Part shown: positions 21,739-38,192 of the stretch, in pieces
How the letters are laid out: every line of letters starts with the position of its first letter
Numbering within the stretch: position 1 is the first letter of the stretch
Assembly: GCA_944319735.1 (NCBI GenBank)
Contig: CALUEU010000008.1
Span: 1 to 38,192 of the forward strand
Length of the DNA stretch: 38,192 bases
Direction: 5' to 3'
Origin: an uncultured Methanomassiliicoccus sp.
GTDB taxonomy: Archaea; Thermoplasmatota; Thermoplasmata; Methanomassiliicoccales; Methanomassiliicoccaceae
The notes under the pieces: generated by a model
The model's input: the letters and a program-made list of their open reading frames with translations, nothing else
Database searches by the model: none
What the model was told of the DNA's origin: nothing
Translations under genes and position numbers: made by a program

Positions 21739-22623
21739 GTTTTCACATCCATCTAAATCTAAAAAGCTAAAGCTAGTTTCTGACAAAGCATAGATAAAGA
21801 CTAAACTAACTTTAGATGCTAATTTAGATAATAAATTTAACGAATTAGTACTATATAAACTAACATTGTATGAAATATACATTTATAAATCATTTTGTAA
21901 TTGATAACCATATTTATAAGGTTTACACAATTTTATATATAAATTAACTATAGATAATTTAATGTATTAAATATAACAACAATCTGGAACATAAATTGTT
22001 TTGAAAAATGATATTATCATTTTTAATAAAAATAATATCAATCAACATTGATTATTTTAATCAATTAGATATTAAAGGTAATCTGGGTTATATATCACGA
22101 CTCAAAATATACACATTTTTCCTAATTTGATCAGCACATTGTATGGATTCTAATTAACAAATGTTTAATCTTATGCGCTGGATATACTAAGTACATGAAC
22201 CTAAATCATATCTAAAGGTAAAATAATGAATCATATCAGAATATGAGTACTAGTTGGTAAAAACTTCTGAATTACAGGGTGTAGATAAATCAGTTAAATA
22301 ATGCAAATTGGATTGTATGTAAAAATTTTGTATCAAATGAAAAGATGATGAGAGTTTGAAAAATAATCTTGTGAAATGCTCATACTACAATAGATGATGC
22401 AATTCAATTGATATTAATACTATTAACATTGACTATATCAAATCATCTGAAAAGTACCTGCCAATCATGGATAACCTTCACCCCTCTCACACAATGTTCA
22501 TGACATGAAGAAATGAAGACAAGATTGTGTAAAGTATCTTAAGATGAAGATATTAAGCGCTTTTCTACATAATAAGAGGGCGTCAAAATCTAAAAATCTT
22601 TTATTCTTATTATTCAAATGAGA
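21739..22623. other. AT-rich gene-free region
   Basis: About 885 bases of markedly lower GC than the flanks with no frame that looks coding. It holds a perfect palindrome at 22004-22024 (AAAAATGATA, T, TATCATTTTT) and further AT-rich inverted repeats just after it. The segment next to 21739 must contain the promoter of the secreted precursor. The composition and the intron relic at its right end suggest a decayed or foreign stretch. Confidence 0.5.
22004..22024. repeat. Perfect 10-bp-arm palindrome
   Basis: AAAAATGATA and TATCATTTTT flank a single T. It lies in gene-free AT-rich DNA. It could be a protein binding site, a DNA cruciform or a terminator-like structure; no neighbouring gene decides which. 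Confidence 0.5.
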
Positions 22624-22700
22624 ATCAAGTAGGAGGCTGTGATTAATTCACCCGCCGTCCTCTCACAGCACCGTATGTATCTGCTGATATATGGCGGTTC
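22624..22700 (-). mobile_element. Probable relic of a group II intron 3' end (domains V-VI)
   Basis: On the minus strand the sequence TACGGTGCTGTGAGAGGACG, then GCGGGTGAAT, then CCTCCTACTTGAT closely resembles the end of bacterial-type group II introns: the second arm of domain V (ACGGT-CTGTGAGAGG) followed by domain VI ending in CCTACTCGAT. The conserved 3' AT would be at 22624. The domain V first arm (GAACCGCC, near 22693-22700) is degenerate: the catalytic AGC triad reads AAC and no GNRA loop is seen. A 66-codon frame across it (22643-22843) ends YGAVRGRRVN, the usual translation of such introns. No reverse transcriptase remains nearby. Confidence 0.42.
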
Positions 22701-23036
22701 AGCAATCTTGAATGTGCTTCATTGTACAGTTCCAGCATGTTAAGAAACTTTGAGATTCTAAGTATTCGTTGTTCAGCGTATTTGCTACTGAATAATAAAA
22801 AGACATTTTCCAGATACTGTGTATATTTCAGATTGTTCCACATTACTTTCCATTTCAGCAGACATGCTTCTTTCCCAGTGTTTCTCTGCTAATGCCGTGA
22901 TGCTCTTCCTTCTGCAGGGGTTCGCAGAGAAATTTCATCCCTGAGAATTAAAAAAACCGTTTGAAAAGGTTTTTGGAAGTCTCGAAAAGACTTCCTGAGT
23001 GTGCCAGACACACAAAAAGTTTTGAGAAGTTTCAGC
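22701..23036. other. Gene-free region with terminator hairpins
   Basis: About 336 bases. The left two thirds may be further decayed mobile DNA, because a frame reading RNTGKEACLLKWKVMWNN continues into the intron relic. The right third holds the stacked hairpins that follow the ABC permease gene. No intact gene is seen. Confidence 0.35.
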
Positions 23037-24990: not shown

Positions 24991-25497
24991 ATGAATGAAA
25001 AATTTGAACTTAAGAGACTTCAGACTATCTGCAGATACGGTTCATACGGCATCATCCTAGTCATGGCAGTATTTATACTACTTCTATTTGCATTGGTAGT
25101 GCTGCTTTTTATCCCTGAAGTCTGGCAGACACTAATAGATGAAGGGATTCCCGAGTCAGAAATTATTCCGCTTATTGTTGTGCTAATTGCAACATCTGTG
25201 ATCATGTTGCTAGTTCTCGGAATTGTGTATAAACTGATGAAAGCTATAAGCAAGGAGAGAACGCCGTTTACGATTAAAAATGTGAAATATATAAAAATTA
25301 TAGCAGTATTAGTTTTCATAGCTGGATTGGTGATCCCAATCATAGAAAATACGATGGTGAAGATAACTCACCCTGAAATCGAATCTAGCATCAGCATAAA
25401 TTTCTTCATGGTGCTTGCAGCTGTGGCGATGTACTGTTTGTCTCTTGTATTCCAGTATGGTGTGTATCTCCAGACTGAATCCGATCAAACTCTGTGA
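24991..25497 (+). CDS. DUF2975-type membrane protein
   Basis: 168 residues with four membrane helices (about 15-42, 55-75, 100-120, 135-155) and a cytoplasmic N-terminus. The charged loop KAISKERTPFTIKNVKYIKI between helices two and three is typical of DUF2975 proteins. These are regularly encoded with a short Cro/C1-type regulator, as here (six bases separate the genes), and are thought to control its activity or sense a membrane signal. Function is not established. Confidence 0.78.
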   Translation: MNEKFELKRLQTICRYGSYGIILVMAVFILLLFALVVLLFIPEVWQTLIDEGIPESEIIPLIVVLIATSVIMLLVLGIVYKLMKAISKERTPFTIKNVKYIKIIAVLVFIAGLVIPIIENTMVKITHPEIESSISINFFMVLAAVAMYCLSLVFQYGVYLQTESDQTL

Positions 25498-25503
25498 TGA
25501 AAT

Positions 25504-25722
25504 ATGGCGATAGTACTGAGATTAGACAGGGTCATGGCGGACAGGAAGATCTCGTTGAATGAGCTGGCAGAAAAAGTAGGCATATCAAATGTAAATTTAT
25601 CGAATATAAAAACAGGTAAGATCTCAGCGATTCGGTTTTCAACACTTAATTCAATATGCAGAGTCTTGAAATGTCAGCCAGGAGACATACTAGAGTATGT
25701 TGACGATCTTGAAGATCAGTGA
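25504..25722 (+). CDS. Small Cro/C1-type helix-turn-helix regulator
   Basis: 72 residues, essentially only the HTH domain (HTH_26/YozG type). The recognition region reads ISLNELAEKVGISNVNLSNI, followed by KTGKISAIRFSTLNSICRVL and CQPGDILEYV, the family signature. It forms an operon with the DUF2975 gene and probably binds the palindrome upstream, controlling its own operon and possibly the divergent ABC transporter. Confidence 0.88.
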   Translation: MAIVLRLDRVMADRKISLNELAEKVGISNVNLSNIKTGKISAIRFSTLNSICRVLKCQPGDILEYVDDLEDQ

Positions 25723-25788
25723 TTATTTGTTGTGCAGATTTCATTTTTTAAAATAATATGTTTAGAGTATTTTGTCAATATCGAGTAA

Positions 25789-25905
25789 GACGGCACTGCT
25801 GCGTTCTTGATGCCATGAGATCTTCCGCAGCAAAACCGACTGGTGAGCAAAAATGCCGATCTTATCGCGTCAGTTCTTCTGTAAGAACTTTAAAGCAGTG
25901 CCGTC
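25789..25905. repeat. 117-bp structured element, copy A
   Basis: The ends are a perfect 12-bp inverted repeat (GACGGCACTGCT / AGCAGTGCCGTC). Inside are a 7-bp hairpin AGTTCTT/AAGAACT and a stem that competes with the outer one (TGCTGCG/CGCAGCA). It follows the terminator of the 467-residue protein gene. A second copy lies at 27441-27557. It may be an RNA element, a boundary or bidirectional terminator, or a small mobile repeat; no flanking target duplication is seen. Confidence 0.55.
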
Positions 25906-26373
25906 ATTGGTAAATGGTTTAAAACTGCCAGACTACTGGCAGTGTTTTGATTTTTATTTTAGAGTTTAAGCTGCTACTTTCTGAGTCTGAAGATTGAAGT
26001 AGAGTGTGACTGCTGGGTTATCTTTATTATTGTAACCGTTTGCTTCTTTTGACTCCACGTTCTGAGTTATTGCATTAGGTCCGATAATTATCTGGTCTGC
26101 TGACGTTTCATACTTGACAATACCGCCGAATGATCCTTGAATGTTAAGTGTTGAGTTACCTTTGAGAAGTATGTATGCTGCAGGACGATCAGGATATTCT
26201 GTGTTTCCTACATTGTCTACATCTTTGAATACATCATAGAAAACGACTTTCTTATTTTCAGGAACAGTCAAAGTTGCATCTTCAAATACTGTCAGAGTTG
26301 CTCCTGTTAAAAATTTGAAGTTATTGTTGAAAGTATAGTTTCCATTGTGAAGCTCGAAAGAAATGTCTCCATC
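25792..26373. repeat. 582-bp perfect direct repeat, copy A
   Basis: By eye identical to 27444-28025 with a constant offset of 1,652 bp. It covers most of the 117-bp element, the terminator and the last 136 codons of the 467-residue gene. Beyond 26374 the two genes differ at many sites, mostly synonymous or conservative. Confidence 0.85.
25924..25943 (-). terminator. Terminator of the 467-residue protein gene
   Basis: Stem ACTGCCAG/CTGGCAGT with a four-base loop; on the minus strand TTTTAAA follows. It begins 23 bases after the stop codon. A T run on the other side makes it possibly bidirectional, which would suit the convergent HTH gene. Confidence 0.6.
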
Positions 26374-27369
26374 GATCGGATAAGTGAACTTGCTTGAGGT
26401 CATAGGCTTCGTGATACCGCCGAATGAGAATGTAAGTGTGCTTTTTTCTGCACTTGCTCCTCCATAGATCGCTATGTTTACTCTGTCTGTTGCGGCATCG
26501 TATGTTTTGACTAAGTACGCATTGTCATTCAGGTGGATTAATCCGTTGTTGTTGTCAATCTGAGGATATCTAGTGTAATTGAAGGTACTTCCTCCGTACA
26601 TTTTCACGTTGCCCAATAATGAAGCTCCTGAGTTGATTGTTATTTTAGATTCTATGTTGTGGCAGTTGTATTCATTCAGAGGGAAGGGATCTCCATATTT
26701 GTTGAGAAGTACGTTTATTCTTCCTCCGATTAAGTTGAGACCATGAGTGCCTCCTCTCCAGCTTTCAATTACAAATAAGTCTCTTATCTCTGCTCCTGAC
26801 TCTGCAATTACTTCTCCATTTCCTTTGATGTAACCGCAGTTATCTAAGATGCCTCCGCTCTTGACAATGATGTTGCCTGAGAGATTAATCTGTGCATATC
26901 CCCCTCTGATATCTTGATCATAATCTCCCCCTCCAGGATATCCTGTTACAGCGTTGATTAGGACTTTTCCTTCAATTGTCAGAGTAGCGTTTTTGTCGAT
27001 TGTGAGTGTTCTATATTGAGACTTAACGCTTGTAGTAGTTCCATCAGGGTTGTATCCTGTTGATGTGTATCCAACATCGTTGTCCATGCACGGCAGCAGC
27101 AGAAATACTCCTGCTTTTACAGTTGCATTTGAAGTCATTGTGTAATCGCTGATTAACACAACTGTCTGACCGCTTACGGCTGTGTTCAATGCTTCTTCCA
27201 ACGTATTGTATGTTGTATCGCCTATGCTTGCTACAGGTGTAGCATTTCCTGCAGATAATGTCACATTACCGTCAGAATCAGAATCATTCAGTGTTCCGAC
27301 TGCAATGAAACAAAATGCTGCAAGCAGTACTGCTCCTACTGCAAGCATCAATTTATGTTTATTTTGCAT
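25966..27369 (-). CDS. Secreted beta-solenoid-like protein, paralog of the giant protein's C-terminal module
   Basis: 467 residues. The ATG at 27369 follows GGAGGAATGAATAA. Residues 7-27 form a signal peptide (LMLAVGAVLLAAFCFIAVG), and the mature part begins with an acidic linker. From about residue 48 on it is one module: TYNTLEEALNTAVSGQTVVL, then short turns rich in Gly, Asn and Thr (RTLTI-TLTIEG, GYAQINLSGNIIVKSGG, SGASLLGNVKMYGG), the pattern of a right-handed beta-helix. It closely matches the C-terminal module of the adjacent giant protein, and its last 136 codons are identical at DNA level. There is no C-terminal membrane anchor or sorting motif. Probably a surface or secreted adhesin-like protein; the ligand is unknown. 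Confidence 0.8.
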   Translation of the reverse strand: MQNKHKLMLAVGAVLLAAFCFIAVGTLNDSDSDGNVTLSAGNATPVASIGDTTYNTLEEALNTAVSGQTVVLISDYTMTSNATVKAGVFLLLPCMDNDVGYTSTGYNPDGTTTSVKSQYRTLTIDKNATLTIEGKVLINAVTGYPGGGDYDQDIRGGYAQINLSGNIIVKSGGILDNCGYIKGNGEVIAESGAEIRDLFVIESWRGGTHGLNLIGGRINVLLNKYGDPFPLNEYNCHNIESKITINSGASLLGNVKMYGGSTFNYTRYPQIDNNNGLIHLNDNAYLVKTYDAATDRVNIAIYGGASAEKSTLTFSFGGITKPMTSSKFTYPIDGDISFELHNGNYTFNNNFKFLTGATLTVFEDATLTVPENKKVVFYDVFKDVDNVGNTEYPDRPAAYILLKGNSTLNIQGSFGGIVKYETSADQIIIGPNAITQNVESKEANGYNNKDNPAVTLYFNLQTQKVAA

Positions 27370-27440
27370 TTATTCATTCCTCCAAATTTTTATTGAAATT
27401 TTATATTATCTCTCAGTTATGAAAGAATTTGCAAATGAGT
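27370..27440 (-). promoter_or_regulatory. Promoter region of the 467-residue protein gene
   Basis: 71 bases between the structured element and the start codon. An AT-rich ATAATATAAAA element (minus strand, about 27396-27406) is a likely TATA box and GGAGG at 27379-27383 is the ribosome binding site. The two are close together, so the leader must be very short. Confidence 0.45.
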
Positions 27441-27557
27441 GATGGCACTGCTGCGTTCTTGATGCCATGAGATCTTCCGCAGCAAAACCGACTGGTGAGC
27501 AAAAATGCCGATCTTATCGCGTCAGTTCTTCTGTAAGAACTTTAAAGCAGTGCCGTC
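27441..27557. repeat. 117-bp structured element, copy B
   Basis: Same element as at 25789-25905 except for one base in the left arm (GATGGC for GACGGC), which would pair as G-U in RNA. It sits between the terminator of the giant gene and the promoter of the 467-residue protein gene. Confidence 0.55.
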
Positions 27558-28025
27558 ATTGGTAAATGGTTTAAAACTGCCAGACTACTGGCAGTGTTTT
27601 GATTTTTATTTTAGAGTTTAAGCTGCTACTTTCTGAGTCTGAAGATTGAAGTAGAGTGTGACTGCTGGGTTATCTTTATTATTGTAACCGTTTGCTTCTT
27701 TTGACTCCACGTTCTGAGTTATTGCATTAGGTCCGATAATTATCTGGTCTGCTGACGTTTCATACTTGACAATACCGCCGAATGATCCTTGAATGTTAAG
27801 TGTTGAGTTACCTTTGAGAAGTATGTATGCTGCAGGACGATCAGGATATTCTGTGTTTCCTACATTGTCTACATCTTTGAATACATCATAGAAAACGACT
27901 TTCTTATTTTCAGGAACAGTCAAAGTTGCATCTTCAAATACTGTCAGAGTTGCTCCTGTTAAAAATTTGAAGTTATTGTTGAAAGTATAGTTTCCATTGT
28001 GAAGCTCGAAAGAAATGTCTCCATC
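27444..28025. repeat. 582-bp perfect direct repeat, copy B
   Basis: Partner of 25792-26373. It covers most of the structured element, the terminator and the last 136 codons of the giant gene. Confidence 0.85.
27576..27595 (-). terminator. Terminator of the giant gene
   Basis: Identical to the hairpin at 25924-25943, part of the duplicated block; it begins 23 bases after the stop codon. Confidence 0.6.
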
Positions 28026-31000
28026 AATCGGATATGTAAATTTGCTAGTCATCATATCTTTGGTGATACCCATCGAGAATGTGAGTGTACTGCTTTCTGC
28101 ACTTGCTCCTCCGTAGATTGCTATGTTTACTCTTTCTGTTGCAGCATCATATGTTTTGACTAAGTATGCATTATCATTCAGGTGGATTAACCCATTATTG
28201 TTATCGATCTGAGGGTACCTTGTATAATTATAACTGTCATTGCCATACATTTTCACGTTGCCTAATAATGAAGCTCCTGAGTGAATTATTATTTTAGATT
28301 CTATGTTGTGGCAGTTGTATTCATTCAGAGGGAAAGGATCTCCGTAATTATTAGAAAGTACTTTAGAAAGGCCCCCAATCAGATTAAGTGCGTGAGAGCC
28401 TCCTCTCCAGCTTTCAATTACAAATAAGTCTCTTATCTCTGCTCCTGATTCTGCAATTATTTCTCCGCTTCCTTTGATGTAACCGCAGTTATCCAAGATA
28501 CCTCCGCTCTTAACAATGATATTTCCTGAAAGATTGATCTGTGCATATCCTCCTCTGATATCTTGATCATAATCTCCGCCAGCTGGATAACCTGTAACGG
28601 CATTGACTAAAACACTTCCTTCAATTGTCAGAGTAATATTCTGCGGAATTGTTAAGGTTCTGTATTGATCCACGCTTGTTGTGGTTCCATCAGGATTGTA
28701 TCCCGTTGAAGTATACCCAACATCGTTATCCATGCAAGGAAGCAGCAGAAATACACCAGATTTTACAGTTGCATCTGAAGTCATCTCATAATCTTTTAAG
28801 AGTGTAAGCTTGTCTCCGGATTTAGCATCAGCTAAAGCAGCTTCAAGAGATGTATAGAAATTCTTACCGATCTGTGCTACATACTGCGTTTCAACTTCTG
28901 CGAAAACAGCAGTTATGTTGAGATTGTTTATCAATGAAAATGAATATGTTGAGTTGGTAGATAGCACATTATTGTTTTCATCAACCCAGCAATAAAACTT
29001 GTATCCAGCATTTGGAATGGCTGATAGTTTTATTGATGAAGCAGACGGGAGCATATTTTCAGAGCCTACTGCTAATTCTTGATCTCCAGAAGTTGCAGAG
29101 ATATTTCCATATTCGCTATTGTTAGAATCAACTTTCAAATGCATAGCAAGAGAGAAACTTAGATTCTTAATCCAAAGACCGTCTTCTTCAGCGCTATCAT
29201 CTGCTAGTTTTGCATAGGCAAAATAGACCGTTACTGATTCACCTTCAGCTGCATCAATAGCTACAGATGCTTTGGACCATAAGTCAGTAACTGCAAATGT
29301 TCCTGCGAGGTATTCAGTAGAACCTAACAAATAAAATCCATATATCCCATAATATGAGATTTGTGAAAAATTATAGCACAATGCATCCTGTGAGATGTTT
29401 GCAGAAGCTTTATTTGATTTAAGTATGTAATCAAATGACAAAACTCCGGGGCCAGTGAGTGTTACAGAAAATTCTGGAAGTGTTGTTGTACCATCATATT
29501 GATCAGGTGCTCCCGAATACAAAGAATGATAAGTACCATTCTGCTCATCATGTAACCAGGGTTTGTCACCAACATTTTCAAATACAGTTACACTGCCGTC
29601 TGATGAAAGCACGTTGTTCCATTTGGCATATAATGTAAGATTATTAGCAGGCATAGTTGTTGGTGCCTGAACTGACAATGCTGAATCAGAATACCAGCCG
29701 TCAAACTGATAACCGAATTTCTCAGAAGATGGTAATGAAAGTGCATCTCCTTGCTTCAGACTTTGGTAAGTTGTATCATCAACCGCACTTCCGCCGTTGG
29801 TTTCAAATGAGATTGAATATGTTTGAGCAGTTATCTGCACTGTTACAATACTGCTGGTTGACGTTGAAGAAGTAGTTCCAAGAGTGTTGGTTACTACACA
29901 GAAGTAATAGTACACTCCTTCAGGTTTGTTAGAAGGAATCGTGTAGGTAGCAGAATTTGCTACCTTTTTGGTTTCCTCCACTGTTGTATCAGATGGCCCA
30001 GTTGCAGCATACCAAGCGTATGATAAGATTCCGCCATCTGTGACTGAAGCAGAAACAGTGAGAGATTTTGAATCTCCAGCAATAATATCCACTGGAGAAT
30101 TGGGAGATTCTATTATTGGTGCCTCTGCTTCTAAAGATGTTTTGAGGGAGATTGTGACGTCTCCGTTGGGCATGATGAAGGTATTCCCATTTAATGTTAC
30201 ACTACCAGATGTTGACGTTACTTCAATATCATCTATGGTGTAACCCGAATTCGGATCAATATTTATGACTATCACTTCACCAGCAGACAGGTAATGATAT
30301 TCGTTTTGATAGTCTGCATTTATTGATGGTATGCCAGTTAAGAGTGAGTTGTTTGCAGTTACATAAACATACCATCTTGTCAATGGATCAAAATTATTAT
30401 TGAACCATGATGGTGTAAATGAGTCATCAGCATACATTAATTCATCGTTCAAGGATTCATTAGGGCCATGTCCAAGATACTTGAAGGTTGTGCCAGTCTG
30501 GGCTTCATCTACAATTAGTGAATGTTGCCCATATAAGGCAGCATCATAATGATTGAAGGAAAAGTGATAGATGTCTGTGTAACGTATACCGGTCACATCT
30601 GATGAGCAGTAGTATCGCCCATATCCATCATATCCCGTTCCATTGGACATAAATGCTTCAGATATTTTTCCATTTATGCCAGTGATTGGGATGTTCAGAT
30701 TTTTCAATAATCCCATTGCATCCCTATATAGGTTGTATTGATCATTTATTGCCCTCTCAATTCCAATTTTTACATTGGTAGTTGTAAATGATTTATCGAC
30801 TGAATAACAGCCATAAATCGCATCTGGGTGACCAACCATAGCAAATGGAACTGAAAAGTTAGCCATCAAGCCATTGAAAAATGATTCATCATCATTTTTA
30901 GAGACTACTTTAAGATACTTTTCATCATTTTCCACACCAACATATGCTGAAAGGATCGCAGAACTGGCATCATCACGAGCAAGTCTACATAACTGCTCTA

Positions 31001-34000
31001 TTTGTAAGAAATAAGTAAGTTTTGCTTCTTCGATTGCATCTGCATCCTGTTTGAATACAATTGTACATCCTGCTAAGTTTACAGTGTAGTCTGCAAGATT
31101 GTCAGCCCATAGGATATCATCATTGGGCAGATATGCAAGGAATGAAGTTATTCCTGTTCTACCAGAATTTGGATTCACAGGCACTTCCTGACTTGTTGCA
31201 GCATATATCTTCTGAATCAGATTTGAAACGTCTGCATTCGGGTTTATGATTGAAACTGTCAGTGTTGTTCCTTCAAGTATTAGCTTGTAATCATTCGATG
31301 TGTCTTGATTGACCAGCTCTTGTAATGCATTTTCTAAACTGGATACCAACTGCAATGACAAGTTTAGATTATCAGTAACGTTTGATATAGTAAATTCAAA
31401 CGTTAAATTATCATTTGTTGTTCCAGAGATTGTTTTATCACCAAATGCAATTACAGGACTATTGTTCCCGATTGAACTTTCAAAGGTAATCGTGAACTTG
31501 AAGTCCTTTCCATGTTCTACAGATGAAATGTTGTAACCGTCTACTACTGACGCATTATATGCAACTCCAACATTATTTGTTGGAAGAGTGATTGAATAAT
31601 GATTGATGCTCCAGACAGCATAGAGAGTTACTGTTGCTCCTTCTGTGGAAGTAAGATTGCTTACTGATTCGCTGTCAGCATATTTTACAGATTCACCAAG
31701 TGTATCAGACCATCCTGCAAATGTGTAACCTGTTTTTACAAATTCATTTGCTTTGAGATATTGTGCTTCACCATATGTGAAAGTTTGATTACTCATCTCT
31801 CCACTTGTTGATCCGTTGCCATTGAATTGTACGTTGTAAGTGATAGGAGTCCAATTGGCTGTGTATGTTCTAGCTCCAATGGAACCATTTTGGATCTGAA
31901 GATTTGTTGTAGTCTCAGATATGTCTGTACCGCTCCATCCTGCAAATGTGTAACCAGTCTTAGTCGGATTGTTAATTGTTATTGTTTCAGATTCAATTGT
32001 ATATTTGTCAGGATTTCCTGAAACGGTTCCTCCATTCAATTCATAAGTGATTTTATATTCAATCGGAGTCCATTTTGCGTAGAGAGTGATGTTTCCTGTT
32101 GTTGTTCCTTTTTCATAGCTAAATAGTGTTGTGCAGTCCGTGTCAGTAAACCAGCTTCCGAAATCATATCCTGATTTTGACACATTATTTGGAAGAATTA
32201 TTGATTCTGTATCAACATCATATGGGACTGGAGTCTGTGCAGGGCTGCCTCCTTTTGTATCAAATGAGATTGTATACTGTGTTTTTACAAACTTAGCGTA
32301 TATTGTGATGTCACCTGTTGTTCCATTAGATATTGAAGTTATCTGATTTGAGAAGTCTGAGTTTCTAAACCATCCCTTAAATTCATACCCGGATTTGGTA
32401 GGATTGGTGAAAGTTATTTCAGAGTCTATTGTATATGTAGCAGGATTTTCAGAGCTGTTTGCTCCCCCATCTAACACATATGTAATTGTGTACTCTGTTA
32501 ATTCCCAGACTGCATAAAGAGTCATGTTTCCTTCAACATTCCAATTGAAAGTTGCACTTAAGGAATAATTATCACCATTGCCGTCTGCCTGAGTGTTCCA
32601 TTTGATAAGATGGTATCCATTTCTGCTGAAGTCAGATCCATCACTCAAAGTTATCTCAGAACCGTATGTTGTGTTTTGACTGCTGATCGAACCTGATCCG
32701 CCGTTGTTGTCATATTGTATTGTGTATAAAATTGGATCCCAGACAGCATAGAGAGTTACTGTTGCTCCTTCTGTGGAAGTAAGATTGCTTACTGATTCGC
32801 TGTCAGCATATTTTACAGATTCACCAAGTGTATCAGACCATCCTGCAAATGTGTAACCTGTTTTTACAAATTCATTTGCTTTGAGATATTGTGCTTCACC
32901 ATATGTGAAAGTTTGATCAGTCATTGATCCACTTGTTGATCCGTTACCATCGAATTGTACTTTGTAAGTGATAGGATTCCAGTCTGCTTTGAGTGTAATA
33001 TTGCCAGTTACAGTAGTATTGAAATCATAACTGCTGCCTTCAAGTGTCCAGTCTTCAAATGTATAACCTTCTTTCGTCGGGTCTGTTGGCTTTGTAACTG
33101 TATTTCCGTGTGTTATTGTTTTTGTTGTTGATGGTGATTCGTTACTATATTCAAATGTAACTGAATATGTGTTCTTCTTGACACCTTCGACTGTAATGTT
33201 GATATCTGAAGTTACACTTTCAATCGTGAATTGATTGTTTGTTAATGTAACGACTGAACCATTCTGTTTGATTGTGTATTCTGATTGAGAATATGCTTCA
33301 TCAAGTGTAAATGTTAATGTTACACTATCTCCATACGCTACTGTGTTGGATGAAGAAGTTAATGTATATCCTTCTCCTGGTTGAATTGTCACATTATATG
33401 AGTTCTTTTCAATTCCTTCAACTGAAATAGTCTGATTTTCTGTTATGTTCTCAATCACATATTTTTCATCAGATTTTGTTAATGCAACTCCATTTGAGTT
33501 TACAATTATCTTGTTTATATCATACATTTCATCAACAGTGATTGTAAATTCGAAATCACTTCCGTAATTTACAGTGGTGCTTCCAACATAGGATATTTTG
33601 TAATCACTAGATGTAGGAACAGTAATGCTGAATGTGATTATTTCCCAGCTAGCATAAAGTGTGATGTTTCCTGTTGATCCTATTGCAATTTCAGTTACTT
33701 TGTTTCCTGAAAAGTCTGAGGTTGTATACCATCCCAAGAATTTGTATCCAAGTCTTGTGGGATCTTTGAGAGTTATTGTGTCTGTTTCACAGTTGTATTT
33801 GTCAGGATTGGATTGATCGTTATCTCCACCGTTTAAGACGTATGAAATTTCATAATCAATTGGAGTTTCTGCATAGACTGCTTTGTAAGTTGCATCTTCA
33901 GTTACACTTGTAATCTCTTTGTCCCAGCCTGAAAAAGTATAACTGTATCTATCGCCAGACGGTCTTTCAGGATCAGTCGGGATTGTGACAACATCGCCAT

Positions 34001-37000
34001 AATGATACTGTTTTGAACTGATCTCTGAATTATCCCAATTTACAAATGATACTGTGTATTCAACAGCTTCCCATTTTGCATAGAGTGTGATGTTTCCTGT
34101 TGATCCTATTGCAATTTCAGTTATTTGATTTTCGAAACTTTCGTCTGTGAACCATCCCTTGAATGTATATCCAAGTCTTGCAGGATCTTTGAGAGTTATT
34201 GTTTCAGTATCAATTGTGTATGAAATGGGATTGTCAGAGCTATTTGTTCCTTCATCTAATTCATAAGTTATGCTGTATGAAACTGCTTCCCATTTTGCAT
34301 ATAACGTCACATTGTTGATTACTTTGTCTTCATTGAAGTTCCACGGAGTTGAATAGCTGGAATCTCTATACCATCCTGTTAGGGTGTAACCTAGTCTATT
34401 CATACCAAGGTCATTTTCATTTAATACTGAATTATAATCAGCAGTTATTGTCTTGTTTGGTATGTCATCAGACACGTAATTCAATGTAACTGTGTATGTG
34501 TTGATAGTCCAGTTTGCATATAATGTTAGATCTTCAGCTTTTCCTGAAGTTTCAGTTATCTTATTATTGAATTCTGCATCTGTATACCATCCTACAAAGG
34601 TATGTCCAGTCTTTGAAGGAGCTAAGAATACCTTTGGAGTTTCTACATCATATTGCGATGGATTATTTTCATGATTTGATCCGCCGTTTAATTCATATGT
34701 AATTGAATAAGTTTCCAAGGTCCATCCTGCATACAATGTAAATGAATTTACCACAGGCGTGTTGAAATCATATTTCTGTGTGCAGTTTGAATCTATAAAC
34801 CATCCTGCAAATATATATCCAGTCCTTGACGGATTTTGTGGTTCTTTAATCTGCCCTTCATACAGCACTTTTTCTTCCTTTACATCGCTTCCTCCTTTGG
34901 AGTCGAATGTAACAGAGAACTCAGCACGATCATATTTGGCATACAAAGTGAAGTTGCTGTTGACTAAGGCATTTAGATCATATACCTGAGTAAACTCAGA
35001 ATCAGAATACCATCCTTTAAACTCATATCCTGTTTTTTCAGGAGCGTCTACAAGTGAAAGTTTCTGTCCATTTTCCACATAGATGTGTTCTATTTGCGAG
35101 TCTCCATAATCAAGAGATACTCTATTCTGAATTTTTGTTGCGAATGTATACAATACAGTCTTGGTAGATGCCCCTGAAGCATTTGCTTCTTTAGATTTAT
35201 ATATCAAAGTTTTCGAGTTGTGCGTATCAATAGATGCATTTCCAGTATCACCAGAAATATTAATTATTCCTCCAAAGCTCCCTTCAATTGTAAGTGACGT
35301 GCTGTCCATCATTATTAGATCTGCAGAGGGCCTGTTAGGATACTTTGTACTATCCGTGGGTGTACTACCTATAGTACACAAATCATCAAATTGGTCATAG
35401 AATACGGTTGCACCTGATTGAGATATTGTTAAATTTACACCTTCATGCAGAATTAATTCAGACCCTGTTAAGAATTTAAAGTGATTTTCAATTGTGTAAT
35501 CTCCACCATATAACTCAAAGGAGATATCTCCATCAACAGGGAAGATAAAATTTCCACTTGACAGATATCTGTCTACAATGTACAGCGAACTTTTGCTTGC
35601 TGTTGCCCCTCCATAAATTTCAATAGTTACTCTTCCCTTGTCTGATGAGGAAGAACCATTTAATGCATCAGGATTGAATGTTTTTACCAGATATGCGCCT
35701 TCGGCGAGTCTGATCAAACCATTTGTATTATTTACTTGGGGGAAACGAGTATAGTGATATCCAGAGATTTCCCCTTCAAACATCTTTACATTTCCAAGCA
35801 AAGATGCTCCTGAATAAATGACTAATTTGGATTGAATATTGTGGCAGTTATATTCATTGAAGGGAAACACACCATTATTATACATGGTGAGTGCCTGAGT
35901 TCCGCCCCTCCAGTGTTGTACAATATACATATCTCTGATTTCTGCACCTGATTCTGCTGTTATCTTTCCGTCTCCTGTAATGTAACCGCAGACTTCGAGA
36001 ATTCCTTCATTTTTGACAGAAATGTCTCCGTTGAGAATGATCTGTGCATATCCGCCTGTGATGTCCATGACGTGATAACCGCCGGCTGCACGGCCGGTTA
36101 CTGCATTAACAAGCAGTTGTCCTTGCAGATCAACTGTTATTCCTTCAGGAATGGTCAGAGTGCGATAGAGTACGCTGTGAGAATTACTGTCACTCATAGT
36201 TCCATTGGGATTGTGCTGCTGCTCATAATCTGCAGTCAGATCATATCCTGTGTCTTCATCAGAACACGGCAGAACTAAGAATACTCCTTTCTTCACAGTA
36301 ATGTTCTGCTTCAGAGTGTAATCATTCAGGAGAATTACTTTATCTCCGCTCACAGCAGCATTCAGCGCGTCTTCCAAGTTTTTGTAATTATTTCCATTCA
36401 GATTTGCTGCGTATGAATCAGAGTATGTTACTGTCACGGTTGTATCGTTCAGTATTGTTCCCGAAACTGCTGTCTTGTCTGGAAGCATGCCAGAGATTTC
36501 TGGAGATTCTACAGAATATTCAGAACCGTATGCCAGTGTTTCTATATGTTGAAGATAAGCTTGTGAATTGTCTTCATAAACATAGCTTATTGTCAGTGTG
36601 TATGAGTTCACAGTCCACTTTGCATACAGAGTGATGTCATCAGCAGGCATTGTTGAGAACTGATATTCGGTTTGCAATGATTCGTCCGAACACCAGTATG
36701 CAAATGTATAGCCATCCCTCATTGGATCGTTGGGTTTTGATACGCTTGTACTATAATCCTGAGTTATCACTGGTACGCTAGAACCGCCGTTGCTTTCAAA
36801 CGTTATGGTGTATTGATTCACTGAAAATTTAGAATAGAGATCGATGTCTCCTGCAGTTACTCCTTTAGAGTATACAAATTCAGTTTCTGCATCTAGTTCA
36901 TACCATCCCAGGAAATCATGTCCTGTTTTTGATACGGCAGGCAGTGAAATCGAGTCTTTTGTTATATCATAACCTACGGTTGAAGTTTCTTCTCCGTTGT

Positions 37001-38192
37001 GCAATGTTATCGTATATGTTTCCAAATTCCACTTTGCATAGAGATTGATATTGGAAGCCGGCATTCTGTTTGATTCGAAGTCCCACTTGTTTTGTAAAGA
37101 GGGGTCTGTATACCATCCATCAAGACTGTAACCTGTTTTAGAGACTGCAGGTGCAGTTATCAGACTATTGAATTCAAAGGTCTGAGTTATTTCATTATTT
37201 CCATTATTAGGATGGAATGATACATTGTATGAGTTCACAGTCCACTTTGCATACAGAGTGATGTTATCAGCAGGCATTGTTGAGAACTGATATTCATGCT
37301 GAAGACTTTCATCTGAATACCAGCCTGCAAATGCATACCCGGTTCTTTCAGGTTCCTGCGGAGCAGAAGTTGCATCACTATAATGATAAGTTTGTGTTGT
37401 GATTACAGACTTATCATAGTTCTGATACGTTATAGTATACTCTATGAATTCAGAAATATACTGTGCTTTATAAGTTGCATCAGCAGTTACTGAAGTTATC
37501 TCCGGAGACCATGAAGAGAATGTGTATCTATATGTTTCATCAGATTGTCTCACTGGTTTCTGAGGCGGAATTACAGTATCGCCATAGTGATAAGTTTCAG
37601 ACTGAATTTCATTCTCATCCCAGTCAATAAATGTTATTTTATATTCAATTAATTTAAATTCTGCTGAAATTGTTACATCATCGGCAGGCATTATAAATTT
37701 GCCATTTTCAATTGTAACATATTGTCCGTTTGAATCCCGTACGATCAGACTACTTAATTCATATCCCGTATTTGGTGAAATCGTAATGCTGATTTCAGAC
37801 TTAGGAGCAGCTGATGTTTCAGTCACTGATACTGAACCGTTTTCAGTGTCGTTTACAGTAATGTTGTATGCATTTCTAAGCCATACTGCATTCATGATTA
37901 CATCAATTGAAGATATTGTAAATTTATCACCTGGCTGATAGATTGTTCCATTATATTCCCAGCCGCCAAATGTGTATCCTTCTTTAGTAAGGATATATGA
38001 GCCGGGAGTAGGGTAGTTTGGACCAAAGAGAATTACTGTTGTTTCATTAGTATATCCTATTTTATAAGGAAGATATCCAATGCCTCCGTTTGCATTATAT
38101 TCTAAGTAGTAAACCTTAGTGAATTTTGAATGCAGGGTTACATCATGATCTGGCATCGTAGTGAATAAGTAAGGAGTTTTTTCATCAGATTC
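27618..38192 (-). CDS. Giant adhesin-like surface protein with InlB-type repeats and beta-solenoid modules (5' end outside window)
   Basis: More than 3,520 codons; the frame stays open to the right edge, so the signal peptide lies outside. The ATG at 38156 is inside a repeat and is not the start. Residue numbers here count from that ATG. 1-575: eight repeats, mostly InlB/Listeria-Bacteroides type (GYTFAGWY-x-LYAKW), with one MucBP-like. 580-1015: first beta-solenoid module. 1015-2185: about sixteen more repeats. 2185-2674: a divergent repeat running into a unique region (contains YGRYYCSSDVTGIRYTDIY). 2674-2775: Ig-like domain. 2775-3090: one repeat, a jelly-roll-like domain and a divergent repeat. 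3092-3512: second module, nearly identical to the 467-residue neighbour. No C-terminal anchor is visible. Such proteins are thought to bind host or microbial partners. Confidence 0.88.
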   Translation of the reverse strand, partial: ESDEKTPYLFTTMPDHDVTLHSKFTKVYYLEYNANGGIGYLPYKIGYTNETTVILFGPNYPTPGSYILTKEGYTFGGWEYNGTIYQPGDKFTISSIDVIMNAVWLRNAYNITVNDTENGSVSVTETSAAPKSEISITISPNTGYELSSLIVRDSNGQYVTIENGKFIMPADDVTISAEFKLIEYKITFIDWDENEIQSETYHYGDTVIPPQKPVRQSDETYRYTFSSWSPEITSVTADATYKAQYISEFIEYTITYQNYDKSVITTQTYHYSDATSAPQEPERTGYAFAGWYSDESLQHEYQFSTMPADNITLYAKWTVNSYNVSFHPNNGNNEITQTFEFNSLITAPAVSKTGYSLDGWYTDPSLQNKWDFESNRMPASNINLYAKWNLETYTITLHNGEETSTVGYDITKDSISLPAVSKTGHDFLGWYELDAETEFVYSKGVTAGDIDLYSKFSVNQYTITFESNGGSSVPVITQDYSTSVSKPNDPMRDGYTFAYWCSDESLQTEYQFSTMPADDITLYAKWTVNSYTLTISYVYEDNSQAYLQHIETLAYGSEYSVESPEISGMLPDKTAVSGTILNDTTVTVTYSDSYAANLNGNNYKNLEDALNAAVSGDKVILLNDYTLKQNITVKKGVFLVLPCSDEDTGYDLTADYEQQHNPNGTMSDSNSHSVLYRTLTIPEGITVDLQGQLLVNAVTGRAAGGYHVMDITGGYAQIILNGDISVKNEGILEVCGYITGDGKITAESGAEIRDMYIVQHWRGGTQALTMYNNGVFPFNEYNCHNIQSKLVIYSGASLLGNVKMFEGEISGYHYTRFPQVNNTNGLIRLAEGAYLVKTFNPDALNGSSSSDKGRVTIEIYGGATASKSSLYIVDRYLSSGNFIFPVDGDISFELYGGDYTIENHFKFLTGSELILHEGVNLTISQSGATVFYDQFDDLCTIGSTPTDSTKYPNRPSADLIMMDSTSLTIEGSFGGIINISGDTGNASIDTHNSKTLIYKSKEANASGASTKTVLYTFATKIQNRVSLDYGDSQIEHIYVENGQKLSLVDAPEKTGYEFKGWYSDSEFTQVYDLNALVNSNFTLYAKYDRAEFSVTFDSKGGSDVKEEKVLYEGQIKEPQNPSRTGYIFAGWFIDSNCTQKYDFNTPVVNSFTLYAGWTLETYSITYELNGGSNHENNPSQYDVETPKVFLAPSKTGHTFVGWYTDAEFNNKITETSGKAEDLTLYANWTINTYTVTLNYVSDDIPNKTITADYNSVLNENDLGMNRLGYTLTGWYRDSSYSTPWNFNEDKVINNVTLYAKWEAVSYSITYELDEGTNSSDNPISYTIDTETITLKDPARLGYTFKGWFTDESFENQITEIAIGSTGNITLYAKWEAVEYTVSFVNWDNSEISSKQYHYGDVVTIPTDPERPSGDRYSYTFSGWDKEITSVTEDATYKAVYAETPIDYEISYVLNGGDNDQSNPDKYNCETDTITLKDPTRLGYKFLGWYTTSDFSGNKVTEIAIGSTGNITLYASWEIITFSITVPTSSDYKISYVGSTTVNYGSDFEFTITVDEMYDINKIIVNSNGVALTKSDEKYVIENITENQTISVEGIEKNSYNVTIQPGEGYTLTSSSNTVAYGDSVTLTFTLDEAYSQSEYTIKQNGSVVTLTNNQFTIESVTSDINITVEGVKKNTYSVTFEYSNESPSTTKTITHGNTVTKPTDPTKEGYTFEDWTLEGSSYDFNTTVTGNITLKADWNPITYKVQFDGNGSTSGSMTDQTFTYGEAQYLKANEFVKTGYTFAGWSDTLGESVKYADSESVSNLTSTEGATVTLYAVWDPILYTIQYDNNGGSGSISSQNTTYGSEITLSDGSDFSRNGYHLIKWNTQADGNGDNYSLSATFNWNVEGNMTLYAVWELTEYTITYVLDGGANSSENPATYTIDSEITFTNPTKSGYEFKGWFRNSDFSNQITSISNGTTGDITIYAKFVKTQYTISFDTKGGSPAQTPVPYDVDTESIILPNNVSKSGYDFGSWFTDTDCTTLFSYEKGTTTGNITLYAKWTPIEYKITYELNGGTVSGNPDKYTIESETITINNPTKTGYTFAGWSGTDISETTTNLQIQNGSIGARTYTANWTPITYNVQFNGNGSTSGEMSNQTFTYGEAQYLKANEFVKTGYTFAGWSDTLGESVKYADSESVSNLTSTEGATVTLYAVWSINHYSITLPTNNVGVAYNASVVDGYNISSVEHGKDFKFTITFESSIGNNSPVIAFGDKTISGTTNDNLTFEFTISNVTDNLNLSLQLVSSLENALQELVNQDTSNDYKLILEGTTLTVSIINPNADVSNLIQKIYAATSQEVPVNPNSGRTGITSFLAYLPNDDILWADNLADYTVNLAGCTIVFKQDADAIEEAKLTYFLQIEQLCRLARDDASSAILSAYVGVENDEKYLKVVSKNDDESFFNGLMANFSVPFAMVGHPDAIYGCYSVDKSFTTTNVKIGIERAINDQYNLYRDAMGLLKNLNIPITGINGKISEAFMSNGTGYDGYGRYYCSSDVTGIRYTDIYHFSFNHYDAALYGQHSLIVDEAQTGTTFKYLGHGPNESLNDELMYADDSFTPSWFNNNFDPLTRWYVYVTANNSLLTGIPSINADYQNEYHYLSAGEVIVINIDPNSGYTIDDIEVTSTSGSVTLNGNTFIMPNGDVTISLKTSLEAEAPIIESPNSPVDIIAGDSKSLTVSASVTDGGILSYAWYAATGPSDTTVEETKKVANSATYTIPSNKPEGVYYYFCVVTNTLGTTSSTSTSSIVTVQITAQTYSISFETNGGSAVDDTTYQSLKQGDALSLPSSEKFGYQFDGWYSDSALSVQAPTTMPANNLTLYAKWNNVLSSDGSVTVFENVGDKPWLHDEQNGTYHSLYSGAPDQYDGTTTLPEFSVTLTGPGVLSFDYILKSNKASANISQDALCYNFSQISYYGIYGFYLLGSTEYLAGTFAVTDLWSKASVAIDAAEGESVTVYFAYAKLADDSAEEDGLWIKNLSFSLAMHLKVDSNNSEYGNISATSGDQELAVGSENMLPSASSIKLSAIPNAGYKFYCWVDENNNVLSTNSTYSFSLINNLNITAVFAEVETQYVAQIGKNFYTSLEAALADAKSGDKLTLLKDYEMTSDATVKSGVFLLLPCMDNDVGYTSTGYNPDGTTTSVDQYRTLTIPQNITLTIEGSVLVNAVTGYPAGGDYDQDIRGGYAQINLSGNIIVKSGGILDNCGYIKGSGEIIAESGAEIRDLFVIESWRGGSHALNLIGGLSKVLSNNYGDPFPLNEYNCHNIESKIIIHSGASLLGNVKMYGNDSYNYTRYPQIDNNNGLIHLNDNAYLVKTYDAATERVNIAIYGGASAESSTLTFSMGITKDMMTSKFTYPIDGDISFELHNGNYTFNNNFKFLTGATLTVFEDATLTVPENKKVVFYDVFKDVDNVGNTEYPDRPAAYILLKGNSTLNIQGSFGGIVKYETSADQIIIGPNAITQNVESKEANGYNNKDNPAVTLYFNLQTQKVAA
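31611..31789. repeat. 179-bp perfect repeat inside the giant gene, copy A
   Basis: Identical by eye to 32739-32917 (offset 1,128 bp, exactly 376 codons). It encodes most of one InlB-type repeat (QYLKANEFVKTGYTFAGW and the following part). Confidence 0.85.
32739..32917. repeat. 179-bp perfect repeat inside the giant gene, copy B
   Basis: Partner of 31611-31789. The offset is a multiple of three, so recombination between the copies would remove or add five repeats without breaking the frame. Confidence 0.85.
36599..36668. repeat. 70-bp near-perfect repeat inside the giant gene, copy A
   Basis: Matches 37226-37295 with one mismatch by eye (offset 627 bp, 209 codons). It encodes the end of one InlB-type repeat and the start of the next (YQFSTMPAD-x-TLYAKWTVNSY). 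Confidence 0.8.
37226..37295. repeat. 70-bp near-perfect repeat inside the giant gene, copy B
   Basis: Partner of 36599-36668; again the offset keeps the reading frame. Confidence 0.8.

Follow-up and report, generated by a model that had tools for sequence, protein, structure and literature searches.

Antigenic variation by gene conversion is known from vlsE of the Lyme spirochaetes and pilE of Neisseria. Among methanogens, mtrA-1 and mtrA-2 of the Methanococcales and Methanomicrobiales are paralogs within one operon, of which one was altered by fusion and domain shuffling and a single domain has been gene-converted (PMC4632066). We regard this pair as the nearest published parallel found for the locus described here; a survey of the literature on gene conversion of archaeal adhesins gave no direct match. 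Ca. Methanomassiliicoccus intestinalis has been described as an outlier rich in PF09479 repeats (PMC7883539). The genome analysed here, with 110 PF09479 matches, recalls that organism and may belong to the same species.

The window comprises the whole of contig C8 (38,192 bp), in a Methanomassiliicoccales genome of 1.77 Mb and 21 contigs; the parts of the locus described below lie on its minus strand unless otherwise stated. C8 encodes the methanol methyltransferase MtaB, one of its proteins has named relatives in Methanomassiliicoccales MAGs (58–60% identity), and ~1.15 kb (21883–23036) is free of open reading frames of 80 aa or more on both strands. Eleven pairs of contig ends in the genome share exactly 77 bp, the mark of a de Bruijn assembly with k = 77. 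One apparently palindromic contig, C19, was dropped, as it is masked to N and its palindromy is meaningless.

Two adjacent genes form the locus. Gene A (25966–27369) encodes a small secreted protein of 467 aa, in which an N-terminal, signal-peptide-like segment (MQNKHKLMLAVGAVLLAAFCFIAVG, read from the sequence) precedes a domain of ~420 aa built from short beta strands that recur. A structure prediction for A, made from three window sequences, reached a mean pLDDT of 48, so that the PDB matches of the model to the beta-helix proteins antigen 43, TibA and polygalacturonase (best E 0.0026) give no more than a hint, and a beta-helix fold is a possible, low-confidence prediction. The second gene (27618–38192) encodes a giant surface protein of at least 3,512 aa, its 5′ end lost at the contig end, with ~20 Listeria-Bacteroides (Flg_new) and 9 Flg_new_2 repeats; it scores 807.9 bits against PF09479 over 20 stretches, above the curated cut-off, as a repeat protein of this family, and in its ~20 repeats resembles the InlB B-repeat (PF09479) surface proteins of gut Methanomassiliicoccales. 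The C-terminal domain of the giant (domain B, 27621–28886) is homologous to mature A, with 88% protein identity, and the giant holds a further, internal copy of the domain (domain D, 51%) around 35172–36446. Unlike the PF09479 proteins, the domain shared by A, B and D matches no Pfam family above threshold (tested with A), and its relatives lie within a single further family of the order, the best of them ~28% identical by single-sequence search. Searches with protein A gave no match in a genome-contig collection that may leave out near-identical records, and neither the protein nor the exact element pattern was found in IMG/VR. The 71-nt spacer between the palindrome that follows the giant and the start of A (27370–27440) contains, as read from the sequence, a TATA-like motif (GATAATATAAAAT) and a GGAGG ribosome-binding site.

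An earlier sequence-only reading had proposed that a perfect direct repeat of 582 bp joins the two genes, and self-comparison of the window confirmed it. Positions 25792–26373 (the 3′ end of A, its untranslated region and most of a palindrome) and 27444–28025 (the equivalent parts of the giant) agree at 582 of 582 bases, the longest self-match at an offset of 1652, although both this 100% identity and the count of 1,652-bp units are as assembled, and assembly at k = 77 may have collapsed near-identical copies. In each gene the repeat holds 135 codons and the stop (25966 and 27618), a terminator-like hairpin (25925–25942 and 27577–27594) and, except for its last 3 nt, an imperfect palindrome of 117 nt (25789–25905 and 27441–27557). 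The earlier statement that most of a structured element is identical in both genes can be slightly refined: on the left, the repeat stops practically where the palindrome does, 3 nt inside it.

The sequence upstream of this tract is still homologous between A and B but differs at 21.4% of 856 aligned columns; among 288 codons there, 83 changes are synonymous and 50 nonsynonymous (dS ~0.98), whereas the 135 codons inside the tract have none (dS 0). In 5000 shuffles the longest identical run was 95, and none reached the run seen. The coding part of the tract in A also differs from the outgroup copy on contig C1 by 45 synonymous changes in 121 codons, which shows that this stretch is not constrained at the DNA level. 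The duplication is thus old and the identity young, a near-identical tract with a sharp edge within otherwise diverged homologous copies, as in gene-converted tandem paralogs. This comparison along both copies lends good support to the earlier suggestion that so sudden a shift from identity to divergence reflects gene conversion or unequal exchange, here upon an old duplication. Our main reading, to which we give a probability of about 0.8, is that the locus arose by duplication and fusion and was then homogenised by gene conversion or unequal exchange.

We think it very unlikely that the identity was instead produced by a short-read assembler which merged two merely similar 3′ ends or fixed a wrong copy number. 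The repeat exceeds k and needs read pairs for its resolution, and the collapsing of bulges by assemblers can erase isolated differences, which could include differences between A and B in the tract. However, copies that are 21% different outside the tract were kept apart, the outgroup locus stayed separate although its element is 93% identical, and a collapse would still demand at least ~97–98% identity in the tract, so that a recent exchange would be needed anyway. On either side, the junction of the A unit runs into the same repeat, which leaves a tandem layout (or an excised circle) as the only arrangement.

A paralogous locus at C1:372505–383283 is arranged differently, as a giant gene, its stop, 13 bp, a small gene and one palindrome. 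The small gene (474 aa) is 68% identical to A, and the giant, of which 3,052 aa are present, lacks domain B, which is therefore best read as a copy of the small gene fused to the C8 giant. Both giants are cut by contig ends, so that their 5′ ends are absent from C8 and C1; the truncated ends (38116–38192 and C1:383207–383283) are exactly identical over the last 77 bp, and over 278 bp their identity is 91%. For the spacer that carries the promoter of A, no counterpart was detectable at C1, its alignment to the 3′ end of the giant there being non-significant (p 0.76), a point against the main reading. Beside this locus, at approximately C1:371370–371460 (L016), lies a short tandem array with a 12-bp period.

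Under duplication and fusion followed by homogenisation, the starting point would have been a small secreted beta-strand-repeat gene with its own terminator and palindrome, directly downstream of a giant InlB-repeat gene, as at C1. A tandem copy of the small gene would then have joined the C-terminal end of the C8 giant through an in-frame fusion, becoming domain B and carrying its 3′ untranslated region along, which would leave the order giant, element, small gene, element. Long after the duplication (dS ~1), the last 582 bp would have been copied between A and B, presumably through general homologous recombination, either as gene conversion or as unequal crossing-over followed by contraction. 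Loss or amplification of the 1,652-bp unit would be a mechanically possible by-product. We infer this order of events and this machinery; the tract itself, being the same in A and B, bears no trace of when the exchange took place or which copy was the donor.

The two loci also share a conserved 3′ block of 211 bp (25796–26006), 201 of whose 211 positions are identical to the C1 copy at 372.5 kb. It contains the last 12–13 codons (..LYFxLQTQKVxA), the stop, the hairpin and the palindrome, and its 95% identity between C1 and C8 stands against ~68% in the flanking coding sequence, a difference matched by 0 of 2000 permutations. Selection on a functional RNA or DNA element together with a C-terminal sorting motif, in the absence of homogenisation between loci, could produce such a block, and the significant fold of the palindrome would suit it. 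Differences are nevertheless spread across the block, the linker is conserved to the same degree as the stems, and changes that break the structure are as frequent as those that keep it. Between A and the C1 copy, four paired sites of the palindrome differ, of which two keep pairing and two break it, with B adding one further break, a pattern that does not favour structure-keeping changes, and an older exchange therefore appears to fit the block at least as well as selection. As selection on the block also fails to account for 100% identity of A and B over 400 bp of coding sequence that the C1 copy marks as free to diverge, we consider it an unlikely explanation.

The palindrome itself invites another reading, in which it is a mobile or recombination element, such as an attC-like cassette end or a MITE, that carries or exchanges gene ends. 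The copy after A is bounded by a perfect 12-bp terminal inverted repeat (GACGGCACTGCT/AGCAGTGCCGTC), the copy after the giant differs from it by one base, with one terminal pair broken, and the RNA fold is strong (z about −4.4 to −5.7). Identity stops at the palindrome end both between A and B and between A and the C1 copy, and tandem units of gene and imperfect palindrome in the same orientation are reminiscent of integron cassettes. Unlike integron cassettes, though, the palindrome ends have no attC boxes (RYYYAAC or GTTRRRY), and three near-identical palindromes stand behind one gene type. These three are the only copies in the genome, and searches with its sequence and with a covariance model across 147 genomes from the order recovered nothing else besides a 21-nt match at chance level. 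By reading the flanks we found no matching target-site duplication, so that the dispersed copies with target-site duplications expected of MITE or REP-like elements are lacking; some diverged homology between A and the C1 copy, moreover, runs ~17 nt past the palindrome, and the paired-site changes described above speak against it as well. Matches to tyrosine recombinases as a whole class number four elsewhere in the genome and none on C8, and Rfam gave no match up to E = 1 across 25000–29000. We hold a mobile palindrome to be highly improbable; most simply, the palindrome is part of a shared 3′ untranslated or terminator region, together with the hairpin, read from the sequence as CTGCCAG-TAGT-CTGGCAG then TTTTA after A and identical after the giant. 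On its other side, between 24991 and 25725 on the plus strand, lie a DUF2975 membrane protein gene and a small helix-turn-helix-like open reading frame, convergent with gene A, and the palindrome sits between these and A.

The sequence-only reading had further calculated that recombination between the two 582-bp copies would remove 1,652 bp and the small gene with it, and the arithmetic holds: in silico, the open reading frame and C-terminus of the giant are unchanged by the loss. The direct repeats, spaced by 1,652 bp, thus have the geometry of a phase-variable cassette, in which recombination gives a viable in-frame product, here in silico. Frequent recombination of the RecA/RadA type could on this basis delete or amplify the unit whilst the giant remains intact, and so switch the small secreted protein on and off or alter its dose. 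Since gene A comes with a TATA-like and a Shine-Dalgarno sequence of its own, every extra unit would be a complete gene, and a de Bruijn graph would presumably look the same whether the locus contained one unit or several. Against this, a frame-preserving deletion is a property of any direct repeat so placed, none of the hallmarks of a recombination site that were sought at the palindrome is present, a single sequence cannot reveal switching, and similar perfect repeats lie inside the giants, where no gene cassette exists. An on/off or copy-number cassette is accordingly a decidedly unlikely account of the locus.

The repeats inside the giants support recurrent exchange more broadly. In the C8 giant, 179 bp are perfectly repeated in frame at an offset of 1128 (31611–31789 and 32739–32917), which we read as another, smaller trace of recent exchange, here between repeats of the InlB type. 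The C1 giant holds perfect internal repeats of 210 bp (C1:376768/377653) and 115 bp (C1:376343/377438; L016). Each of the three tracts has at least one sharp edge, and together the perfect tracts in both giants point to exchange as a recurrent outcome of general recombination among repeats and not of a dedicated switch. Further genomes of the order also contain perfect internal repeats, of 226, 157 and 91 bp, each inside one long open frame (L077:13731/13986, L085:14081/14471 and L079:5940/6192, respectively).

Elsewhere in the genome, five surface genes (C13:2824, C5:2804, C16:2344 and C15:2240 on the minus strand, C2:316766 on the plus strand; L092–L096) are identical from 147–184 nt 5′ of the ATG through the first 131–148 nt of coding sequence (MKTEKRLTMALSVLVALMMLAVPLASSSNLFVDGG..., ~codons 44–49). 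They then diverge abruptly, with 30–40% protein identity between the bodies of the four compared, and C13 and C16 have their last 77 bp in common. The set looks like a surface family with constant ends and variable bodies. It is conceivable, though quite unlikely in our estimate, that the surface is diversified by recombination in which constant 5′ blocks, as in these five genes with the same promoter and signal-peptide DNA, and constant 3′ blocks made up of C-terminus, terminator and palindrome serve as homology handles, with the 1,652-bp unit as one variable module; such handles would shuffle, delete or amplify surface-protein genes.

Within the surface genes of a gut-type methanogen, the locus illustrates cleanly how gene conversion can follow upon the fusion of a domain. 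Islands of identity, 77 to 582 bp long, are found repeatedly in the surface-protein genes here and are responsible for part of the breaks in the assembly, so that short-read genomes of these archaea may misstate the number and sequence of their surface genes. Should strains or long reads prove to vary at this locus, it would represent recombinational surface variation in a methanogenic archaeon. As it stands, the twin ends of A and the giant look like the result of ordinary recombination between repeated surface genes, and the finding is mostly an ordinary one.

Set beside the described systems, A and the giant share with vlsE and pilE that they are surface genes with islands of identity whose sharp edges stem from homologous recombination, but they differ in that no silent, promoterless cassette array feeds a single expression site, and both copies of the tract lie in apparently complete genes. 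With mtrA-1 and mtrA-2 they share adjacency of paralogs in a methanogen, the fusion of one of them and a partial homogenisation. The mtrA pair, however, encodes a conserved enzyme of methanogenesis under very long-term conversion, whereas A and the giant are surface proteins with one recent tract, which takes in the 3′ untranslated region and palindrome, in one genome.
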